From: Shinella fusca
Lineage (GTDB): Bacteria; Pseudomonadota; Alphaproteobacteria; Rhizobiales; Rhizobiaceae
Assembly: GCF_014203155.1 (NCBI RefSeq)
Contig: NZ_JACHIK010000018.1
Span: forward strand, 17,304-81,303
Length of the DNA: 64,000 bases
Direction: 5' to 3'
Part shown: positions 25,735-27,178 of the stretch, one piece after another
How the letters are laid out: each line of letters begins with the position of its first letter
How positions within the stretch are numbered: the first letter of the stretch is position 1
Notes under the pieces: model-generated
What the model saw: only the letters and a program-made list of their open reading frames with translations
The model's database searches: none
Told to the model about the DNA's origin: nothing
Program-made: the position numbers and the translations under genes

Positions 25735-25872
25735 AAGACCCTCTCTGCCTGCCGGCATCTCCCCCACAAGGGGGGAGAACGCTGACGGCTTGCTCTTCCT
25801 TCCCATTTTTCGCGCGAAGGAGCGGCACGTTAAGTCCCTCCCCCTTGTGGGGAGGGGTTGGGGAGGGGTCTT
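25735..25872. repeat. family B intergenic palindromic repeat, inverted orientation
   Basis: Full copy in the opposite orientation: it begins AAGACCCTCTCTGCC and ends GGGGAGGGGTCTT. It separates the upstream unit from the attenuator promoter by 22 bases. Confidence 0.85.
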
Positions 25873-25894: not shown

Positions 25895-25922
25895 TTGACA
25901 ATCACCGCGAAAGAGAGAATAT
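25895..25922 (+). promoter_or_regulatory. predicted sigma-70 promoter of the leader/GNAT operon
   Basis: TTGACA (25895-25900) is a perfect -35 box; GAATAT (25917-25922) at 16-base spacing is the best -10. The predicted start falls 7-8 bases later, at 25929-25930, exactly on the A of the leader-peptide ATG. The transcript would therefore be leaderless, as reported for the rhizobial trp leader. Confidence 0.55.
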
Positions 25923-25929
25923 CGCGTCC

Positions 25930-25980
25930 ATGATCAAGAGCACGCACATCGCCGCAACGTATTTTTGGCTGTTCCGATAG
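25930..25980 (+). CDS. candidate aromatic leader peptide (attenuator)
   Basis: A 16-residue frame, MIKSTHIAATYFWLFR, with Tyr11-Phe12-Trp13 and Phe15 codons just before the stop. Consecutive scarce-amino-acid codons followed by Arg-stop are the design of transcription-attenuation leaders; the rhizobial trp leader has the analogous IWWWAR ending. The frame starts at the predicted transcription start, so it may be translated without a ribosome binding site. Downstream, two alternative stems fit the classic mechanism: a ribosome reaching the stop would cover 25983-25991 and let the terminator form; a ribosome stalled on Tyr/Phe/Trp codons would leave it free. The regulated genes are a GNAT and a DJ-1/PfpI protein. 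Confidence 0.6.
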   Translation: MIKSTHIAATYFWLFR

Positions 25981-25982
25981 GA

Positions 25983-26011
25983 GCGGCTGTTCGATCATGT
26001 CAACAAGCCGC
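25983..26011 (+). promoter_or_regulatory. predicted antiterminator stem
   Basis: GCGGCTGTT (25983-25991) can pair with AACAAGCCGC (26002-26011) with one bulged A. The second strand is the same sequence that forms the 5' arm of the terminator, so the two structures exclude each other. Confidence 0.55.
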
Positions 26012-26033
26012 CATCAGGCGGCTTTGTTGTTTT
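26002..26033 (+). terminator. attenuator terminator
   Basis: AACAAGCCGCC-ATCA-GGCGGCTTTGTT forms a GC-rich hairpin with one bulge, followed by GTTTT. It lies between the leader stop and the GNAT start (37 bases before it), so it should stop transcription before the genes unless the antiterminator forms. Confidence 0.65.
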
Positions 26034-26070
26034 AAGGGCACCTGATGGCAGAAAAACCAAGGAGCCCGAA

Positions 26071-26571
26071 ATGCAAAATACCGTCATCAAGCTCGAACCC
26101 CTGCCCGTCGAACGCCCGCCGGTGCTGACCATCCGCGCCGCCCGCCAGGGCGACCTGCAGCAGATCCTCGACATGATCGCGCTGCATGCCGAATGCCACG
26201 GCGACACGGCGAAACTCACGGCCGCCGACCTCGACCGCGACCTCTTCGGCGCCCATCCCTGGATCACCGCGCTGGTGGCCGAAGCCGGCGGGCGGCTGAT
26301 CGGCTACGCCCTGCTCGTGCCGATGTACCGCGCCGCCGAAGGCCTGCGCGGCATGGAGCTGCACCAGATCTTCGTGCGCGCGGGCCATCGCGGCAACGGC
26401 ATCGGCCACCATCTCGTCTCGCGCGCCCGCGAGCATGCCCGCATCGCCGGCTGCGGCTACCTCTCGGTGAGCGCGGCGACCGGCAACTTCAACGCCCACC
26501 GCTTCTACGAGCAGATGAATTTCCGCGCCGGCCCCGTCACCGGCATGCGCTACGTGCAGGCCCTCGGCTGA
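26071..26571 (+). CDS. GNAT-family N-acetyltransferase under predicted attenuation
   Basis: 166 residues. Acetyl-CoA fold: N-terminal LTIRAARQGDLQQILDMIALHAE, beta-4 strand MELHQIFVRAGHRGNGIGHHLV with the pyrophosphate loop RGNGIG (about residues 110-115), and the AATGNFNAHRFYEQMNF C-terminal motif shared with polyamine/amino-acid acetyltransferases. AAGGAG precedes the ATG. The substrate is unknown; regulation by an aromatic-rich leader suggests an aromatic amino acid or a related amine, which is inference. It is 22 bases upstream of the DJ-1/PfpI gene and clearly in one operon with it. Confidence 0.85.
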   Translation: MQNTVIKLEPLPVERPPVLTIRAARQGDLQQILDMIALHAECHGDTAKLTAADLDRDLFGAHPWITALVAEAGGRLIGYALLVPMYRAAEGLRGMELHQIFVRAGHRGNGIGHHLVSRAREHARIAGCGYLSVSAATGNFNAHRFYEQMNFRAGPVTGMRYVQALG

Positions 26572-26593: not shown

Positions 26594-27178
26594 ATGGCAA
26601 AGCGTCTGGCAATCGTCCTCACCGAGGGCTACGCGGACTGGGAATGCGCGCTGCTGATGGCGACGGCGCGCGGAGACTGCGGGGCCGAGACCGTCGTCCT
26701 GACACCGGGCGGGGCCGACGTCACCTCGCTCGGCGGCCTCACCGCGCGCTCCGCCGGCCGGGCCGAGGAGGCCGCGCCCGGCGATTTCGACATCCTGGTG
26801 ATCTGCGGCGGCACGATCTGGCAATCCGGCAAGGCGCCGGACCTTGCCGCGCCCGTCCGCCGCTTCCTGAATGCCGGAAAGCCGGTGGCGGGGATCTGCG
26901 ACGCGACGCTGGAGCTCGGCCGCCTCGGCGTGCTCGACGAACGGGCGCATACCGGCAACTACCGCAGCCAGCTTGCGGACAAGGTGCCAGCCTATCGCGG
27001 CGGCGCGCTCTACCGCGACCAGCCGCAGGCGGTGAACGACCGCAGCGTCATCACGGCCTCGGGCGCCGCGCCCGTCACCTTCGCGAAGGAAGTGCTGGAG
27101 GCCATCGGCCTCGGCTCGCCCGAGCTTCTCGACTATCTGCGCCTTTACGGCGACGAGCACCGCCCGGCTTCCGCCTGA
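26594..27178 (+). CDS. DJ-1/PfpI-family protein (class I glutaminase-like fold)
   Basis: 194 residues. The fold is marked by AIVLTEGYADWECALLM with the conserved Glu, FDILVICGGTIWQSG, and the nucleophile-elbow Cys in VAGICDATLELGRLGVL. These proteins act as glyoxalases, amidases or small-molecule hydratases; the exact reaction cannot be told from sequence. The histidine normally after the Cys is replaced (CDATLE), a subgroup feature. AAGGAG precedes the ATG. As the second gene of the operon behind the aromatic leader, it may act on the same metabolite as the acetyltransferase. Confidence 0.82.
   Translation: MAKRLAIVLTEGYADWECALLMATARGDCGAETVVLTPGGADVTSLGGLTARSAGRAEEAAPGDFDILVICGGTIWQSGKAPDLAAPVRRFLNAGKPVAGICDATLELGRLGVLDERAHTGNYRSQLADKVPAYRGGALYRDQPQAVNDRSVITASGAAPVTFAKEVLEAIGLGSPELLDYLRLYGDEHRPASA

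Follow-up and report, generated by a model that had tools for sequence, protein, structure and literature searches.

In the enterobacterial trp and pheA leaders, four regions of the RNA pair alternately into an antiterminator or a terminator, and the codons at which the ribosome stalls are located a few codons before the stop of the leader reading frame; each of these leaders reads a single amino acid, has a ribosome binding site before its reading frame and serves a biosynthetic target. The vmlR leader of Bacillus subtilis is reportedly controlled at both transcription and translation, to go by the title of a paper on it; it belongs to an antibiotic resistance factor of a Gram-positive bacterium, unlike the leader presented here, which is a predicted amino-acid-reading attenuator. 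In Sinorhizobium meliloti, a member of the same bacterial family as our locus, the trpL frame is reported to be leaderless (PMC10117765, PMC7298713), and rnTrpL and peTrpL are reported to act in trans (PMC7298713, PMC10117765).

Here, we have examined the region 25930-26070 of a 64-kb window (the whole stretch of DNA that was analysed), read directly from the window sequence. This region is a conserved leader, predicted with fairly high confidence from its sequence and its relatives to act as a leaderless, ribosome-mediated transcription attenuator that reads Tyr, Phe and Trp codons ahead of a GNAT acetyltransferase gene. It shares the four-region logic and the stall codons near the stop with the enterobacterial leaders, and differs from them in the number of amino acids read and in the downstream gene, and probably also in having no ribosome binding site before its frame. 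The trpE(G) attenuator of S. meliloti is alike in its short ORF, the sensed codons near its end and the intrinsic terminator, and its leaderless start is the one predicted for our leader, but Trp is the single amino acid that it reads and the one whose synthesis it controls, whereas our leader has codons for Tyr, Phe and Trp and precedes a GNAT gene; the likeness meant here is one of layout. Membership in the rhizobial trp attenuator (rnTrpL) has been rejected, as the leader carries one Trp codon, not consecutive Trp codons, and precedes the GNAT gene, not trpE(G). Within the open-licence literature searched, the type of mechanism is known, while the three-aromatic leader before a GNAT gene, the related Tyr-Tyr family and the conserved second set of pairings are new.

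The leader, its promoter and its conservation

The features of the locus are collected in Table 1. The sequence elements that had been named in the original prediction (promoter, reading frame, pairings and terminator) are all present in the window, among them GCGGCTGTT at 25983-25991, which is able to pair with AACAAGCCGC at 26002-26011. At 25755-25870, past the upstream gene and ahead of the promoter, CCCCCACAAGGGGGGAG and CCTCCCCCTTGTGGGGAGGGG make up a facing pair of C/G-rich stretches that resembles a dispersed intergenic repeat.

Table 1. Features of the leader and of the genes that follow it, in window coordinates (helices numbered as in alignment A2)
Feature	Position	Strand	Description
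Promoter TTGACA-16-GAATAT	25895..25922	+	TTGACA 25895-25900, 16 nt, GAATAT 25917-25922, 7 nt, ATG 25930-25932
Leader ORF MIKSTHIAATYFWLFR	25930-25977, stop TAG 25978-25980	+	Tyr-Phe-Trp codons 25960-25968
Region 1, within the leader ORF	25967..25975	+	Pairs with the region 2 part 25980-25988 (fold; helices 2 and 3 of A2)
Region 2	25980..25991	+	Partner is region 1, or region 3 (antiterminator)
GATCAT	25993..25998	+	Complements the first six bases of the leader RNA, ATGATC (fold; helix 1 of A2)
Region 3	26002..26012	+	Antiterminator when paired with region 2, terminator when paired with region 4
Intrinsic terminator, hairpin 26005-26024 and T-rich tail	26005..26033	+	Arms AAGCCGCC-ATCA-GGCGGCTT
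Terminator loop with flanks GCCATCAGG	26010..26018	+	Complementary to region 5
GGGCACC, 5' arm of the hairpin predicted to mask the GNAT Shine-Dalgarno	26036..26042	+	Partner 26061-26067
Region 5 CCTGATGGC	26041..26049	+	Partner is the terminator loop; shares bases with the Shine-Dalgarno-pairing arm
GNAT Shine-Dalgarno region AAGGAGCCC	26059..26067	+	Read from sequence
GNAT acetyltransferase, 166 aa, constant downstream gene	26071..26571	+	PF00583, E 6e-17
DJ-1/PfpI family protein, 194 aa; second gene, frequent, not constant	26594..27178	+	PF01965

Of 297 Rhizobiaceae genomes searched, 68 have an orthologue of the GNAT (E<=1e-25), the genome of the window being one of them. We trained a covariance model (R1) on 27 leaders, some of which come from these 297 genomes; it scores more than 50 bits ahead of 67 of the 68 orthologues, at a distance of 31-159 nt from the matched part of the GNAT. 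In front of the 68th (L126), we have recognised by eye a terminator, the spacing of the promoter and the frame MIKRLPTLCWFYYANLP. In the opposite direction, R1 exceeds 50 bits at 71 places in the 297 genomes, and the GNAT is present in the genome of all 71, four of the places not lying in front of it. A second model, built from 43 leaders (R2), scores 127.7 bits on the window at 25930-26050, as is expected for a leader that is one of its training rows (L026), while the runner-up place in the window scores 17.4 bits. By this comparison of sequences, the leader first noticed in the window is confirmed and is strongly conserved. The window has no match to Rfam at the gathering threshold, and the relatives L050, L113, L116 and L123 match only below it; a T-box or another Rfam leader has been ruled out on the ground that no curated model matched at that threshold.

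The hexamer core TTGAC is located 34-37 nt ahead of the leader ATG in 86 of 87 distinct upstream sequences, in a scan that covered -28 to -45 only; counted from its first T to the A of the ATG, the distance is 34, 35, 36, 37 and 39 nt in 5, 52, 28, 1 and 1 cases, respectively. With this spacing, transcription is expected to start at or next to the ATG, and the leader is thus probably leaderless, in agreement with the start that had been proposed. In 25 of the 87 sequences, a Shine-Dalgarno-like 4-mer lies between -17 and -4 relative to the leader ATG; a start at the ATG would place these 4-mers within the -10 region, but they would speak against a leaderless start if transcription began further upstream.

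A simple scan for promoters does not list the leader promoter, whose GAATAT agrees with TATAAT in 3 of 6 bases, and a scan for terminators finds 2, with 2.0 expected from shuffles, i.e. no excess; with both elements unremarkable in simple scans, their support is their conservation. It might be argued that the locus is an ordinary terminator of the upstream gene next to a chance ORF, considering that such terminators are common, that the scan shows no excess and that low-scoring matches of the models are ordinary terminators; however, the leader, the promoter spacing and the hairpins accompany the GNAT in all 68 genomes that have it, and by this comparison such a reading is refuted and has next to no probability left.

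Aromatic codons and alternative pairings

We have compared 54 distinct GNAT leader peptides, drawn from 80 leaders kept by script, L126 not included. Counting back from the stop, residue -6 is Tyr and residue -5 is Phe in all 54, residue -4 is Trp in 49 and Thr in 5 (with the Trp moved to -7 in four of these five), and residue -2 is Phe or Tyr in 50. All three aromatic residues occur in 53 peptides, L123 being the one without Trp, and they are confined to the last eight residues in all 54. A short ORF with a cluster of cognate codons near its stop, one of the marks of an attenuator, is therefore found with Tyr-Phe in 54 of 54 peptides and with Trp in 53, and the aromatic codons that had been noted at fixed places before the stop in the window are conserved in these leaders. 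In L126, the aromatic run is Trp-Phe-Tyr-Tyr; since the order changes (YFW, WYF, WFYY) and the make-up is constant, it is the composition, rather than the order, that is kept. TAC is found as a synonymous replacement of TAT, and most residues ahead of -7, as well as the middle of the peptide, are variable. Conservation at -4 to -1 may be due in part to the overlapping region 1 of the RNA, while codons -6 and -5 fall outside it. Outside the Rhizobiaceae, a distant GNAT (L159, 38% identical) follows a leader, MNLVQNHLNSYHRRLN, that has Tyr and His, is devoid of Phe and Trp, and has TTGAC at -36.

The single-strand fold of the leader has an energy of -41.5 kcal/mol (z -3.61 against dinucleotide shuffles). 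In alignment A2, 87.6% of the cells are paired in the start helix ATGATC/GATCAT (helix 1), 85.1% and 81.2% in the region 1:region 2 pairing (helices 2 and 3), 97.4% in the terminator helix (helix 4) and 93.4% in the antiterminator helix, the latter two counted over 43 leaders. The attenuator layout is thereby borne out, with mutually exclusive 1:2, 2:3 and 3:4 pairings and with a terminator and a competing antiterminator right after the ORF (43 leaders; masked folds). When a ribosome is mimicked by masking the leader RNA of the window as far as 11 nt past the Tyr codon, 2:3 has a probability of 0.68 and 3:4 one of 0.22; under a mask at the stop, 3:4 reaches 1.0. Averaged over 80 leaders at full length and at equilibrium, 3:4 drops from 0.97 to 0.73 in the stalled state, with 2:3 at 0.23; as this shift is small, the switch must act during transcription.

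Paired with its own partner, 2:3 has an energy of -12.7 kcal/mol, versus -12.0 with permuted partners, a small gain that 1 of 20,000 permutations equals. The pairs of the antiterminator, taken together with those between the terminator loop and region 5 (loop:5), are kept in 92.5% of the cells of 43 leaders, a share that falls to 25.9-56.7% once the structure is shifted by 1 to 3 columns, the tested structure having been written from one of the 43 aligned sequences, which favours it over the shifted versions. Covariation of the stems across relatives, which the original prediction had put forward as a check, stands in part: for 2:3 plus loop:5 in A2, three of five measures beat all shuffles (0/500), but the other two lie within them (114/500 and 370/500).

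We propose that, with ample aromatic aminoacyl-tRNA, the ribosome would reach the stop and cover region 2, and the 3:4 hairpin would terminate transcription, whereas scarcity of any one of the three charged tRNAs would stall the ribosome over region 1, allowing 2:3 to form and the polymerase to read through into the GNAT gene. As Tyr, Phe and Trp are all shikimate-derived, the cell would probably be responding to a lack of aromatic amino acids in general or to a block that keeps their tRNAs from being charged, and the GNAT, often with the DJ-1 protein, would remove or modify a small amine tied to aromatic stress.

The start helix is not required by an attenuator, and it invites another explanation of the conserved sequence, namely an action in trans of the peptide or of the terminated leader RNA of ~100 nt, the latter having been suggested as a possible sRNA in the original prediction. 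Such action is reported for rnTrpL and peTrpL of S. meliloti, from the same bacterial family and the same class of leaderless attenuator RNA (PMC7298713, PMC10117765). Apart from that helix, however, conservation is found mainly in the codons and arms that an attenuator requires, with the middle of the peptide variable, and we consider an action in trans unlikely.

Genes behind the leaders

The four R1 places in the Rhizobiaceae that are not in front of a GNAT gene have leaders with Tyr-Tyr codons, e.g. MIKTALIAANYYATSP (L113, L115, L116 and L119). In L113 and L116, the leader is located ahead of a second complete TyrS, the other TyrS of the genome being 55-56% identical (G258, G197); in L115 only a TyrS fragment follows (G298), and in L119 there is no TyrS match behind the leader (G115). 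Run over 397 genomes of the order (Hyphomicrobiales), R2 has 12 matches outside the Rhizobiaceae, with a leader visible in nine. The matches L182, L185 and L186 have been set aside by eye as ordinary terminators, likewise the low-scoring L124 and L125.

TyrS follows such leaders in three families (L180, L187 and L189; NCBIfam TIGR00234 above its cut-off), the codons being Tyr-Phe-Tyr-Tyr in L180 and Tyr-Tyr in L187 and L189; L181 and L188 are near-identical to tested TyrS loci, judged by the starts of their sequences. Prephenate dehydrogenase follows Tyr-Tyr leaders in four families (L178, L179, L183 and L184), its genes being above the cut-off of Pfam PDH_N and below those of the NCBIfam equivalogs; L183 and L184 are weak R2 matches, at 40.7 and 36.9 bits. 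In the open-licence literature searched, we have found no description of a Tyr-Tyr attenuator of prephenate dehydrogenase. These leaders share the RNA model with the GNAT leaders and differ in having Tyr-Tyr, not Tyr-Phe-Trp, ahead of genes that make or charge tyrosine. Wherever the gene is known, the codons match its function, and this is the strongest support for amino-acid sensing.

Behind the three-aromatic leader, it is the GNAT gene that never varies. The window comes from an alphaproteobacterial genome with Shinella as its closest named relatives, the GNAT identity being 82-90% at the Shinella loci L001-L010, L012, L020 and L024. A downstream gene that belongs to the sensed amino acid is usual for an attenuator, not defining; the GNAT is no known aromatic amino acid gene, as had been noted of the window, while tyrS and prephenate dehydrogenase follow the sister leaders. 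The DJ-1 gene had been grouped with the GNAT gene in one operon; that it is an obligatory partner is not supported, a match being located downstream in 45 of 80 loci. Two of these matches are short (L005 and L006, both Shinella), with 103 and 47 aligned residues, which may reflect decay of the second gene, and the leader and GNAT frames are still open in both. In L076, the protein encoded downstream resembles, by eye, a glutathione-S-transferase. By sequence, the DJ-1 protein is closest to 2fex, a conserved hypothetical protein.

Sequence and fold searches with the GNAT single out no substrate; the nearest solved relatives include spermidine/spermine and thialysine acetyltransferases, so that the aromatic amine once suggested as the target of the enzyme is not supported, and a small-molecule amine is our guess. 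Aminoglycoside acetyltransferases are also among its fold neighbours, and its NCBIfam matches are weak and all below cut-off, with antibiotic acetyltransferases among them. Both observations would suit a leader that acts as a nascent-chain arrest peptide or a general translation-stress sensor for ribosome-targeting antibiotics, with the aromatic residues acting in the exit tunnel and the GNAT serving as a resistance gene; the uORF of topAI-yjhQ in E. coli is reported to sense several such antibiotics (PMC12121999). Against this stand the variable order and stable make-up of the aromatic residues, the mostly variable residues before -7, and the sister leaders with Tyr-Tyr codons before TyrS and prephenate dehydrogenase, and we regard an arrest peptide as very unlikely. 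The reading that we prefer remains an attenuator that would sense the charging of aromatic tRNAs.

Pairings downstream of the terminator

Two further pairings, absent from the original prediction, have been found downstream of the terminator. The arm GGGCACC pairs with GGAGCCC at the GNAT Shine-Dalgarno, with one A-A mismatch, and region 5 pairs with the terminator loop. In the window sequence at equilibrium, the unpaired probability of the Shine-Dalgarno is only 0.06-0.07. Across the leaders, loop:5 has -15.1 kcal/mol with its own partner versus -11.6 when swapped (27 loop types), and the region 5 arm with the Shine-Dalgarno has -10.8 versus -7.9 permuted (73 Shine-Dalgarno types); in each case, 0 of 20,000 permutations is as good. 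Examples of arms with their own partners are GCAUCC/GGAUGC, GCGUCC/GGACGC and GCUUCCC/GGGAAGC. On a tree of 80 GNATs, the contrasts listed for four loop positions number 4, 2, 1 and 3 on supported branches, which is too few for a sign test to reach significance; for the Shine-Dalgarno hairpin, independent contrasts among those listed are likewise too few. In L099, L117 and L123, region 5 pairs poorly with the terminator loop, and the second lock described below may be absent there or differently built.

As the two helices overlap and are mutually exclusive, a stalled ribosome would, in our proposal, expose the Shine-Dalgarno by way of loop:5. Region 5 on the Shine-Dalgarno would keep translation of the GNAT off, and the RNA of leaky read-through would remain untranslated; once 2:3 has formed, the free terminator loop would capture region 5, and translation would be on. 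Of 80 leaders folded with 2:3 imposed and the RNA cut at region 5, 77 have loop:5 above 0.5, while at equilibrium over the whole RNA the hairpin on the Shine-Dalgarno prevails and loop:5 has a mean of 0.09 and a median of 0.0005. Compared with the dual control reported for vmlR, the pairings are conserved, yet in silico the switch is kinetic only. That these pairings form a second, translational lock, which in silico works only if folding is co-transcriptional, is to our judgement an evenly poised question.

An account that has a real, if somewhat smaller, claim confines control to transcription and assigns the pairings after the terminator to mRNA stability, RNA processing or a brake on the Shine-Dalgarno that does not switch. 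It is consistent with the loss of loop:5 to the Shine-Dalgarno hairpin at equilibrium in most sequences, with the small number of independent covariations, and with region 5 being made after the termination point. It does not readily accommodate two mutually exclusive helices that each beat all 20,000 permutations, or the recurrence of loop:5 outside the GNAT leaders. There, without the permutation control, all eight tyrS leaders tested show it clearly, as does the prephenate dehydrogenase leader L179, with a Shine-Dalgarno hairpin identified by eye, CGTCTCC/GGAGACG; of the other prephenate dehydrogenase leaders, L178 and L183 show it more weakly, L184 not being among those parsed.

Taking the two locks together, we tentatively suggest, as a possibility of rather low probability, that a Tyr-Tyr switch of tyrosine genes has been rewritten to Tyr-Phe-Trp and now serves as an alarm for a breakdown of the entire shikimate supply or of aromatic tRNA charging, wired to an acetyltransferase that would detoxify the causative agent; one ribosome stalled at any of the aromatic codons would both let the polymerase pass and open the ribosome binding site. 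The predicted attenuator would carry leader-peptide attenuation beyond amino acid synthesis, in that three amino acids from a single pathway would be read at once in the control of a gene without a known role in making them. The leader offers a concrete lead to the function of the GNAT/DJ-1 pair in the Rhizobiaceae, next to a tyrosine attenuator family across several families of the Hyphomicrobiales and a two-level switch design that is open to test.
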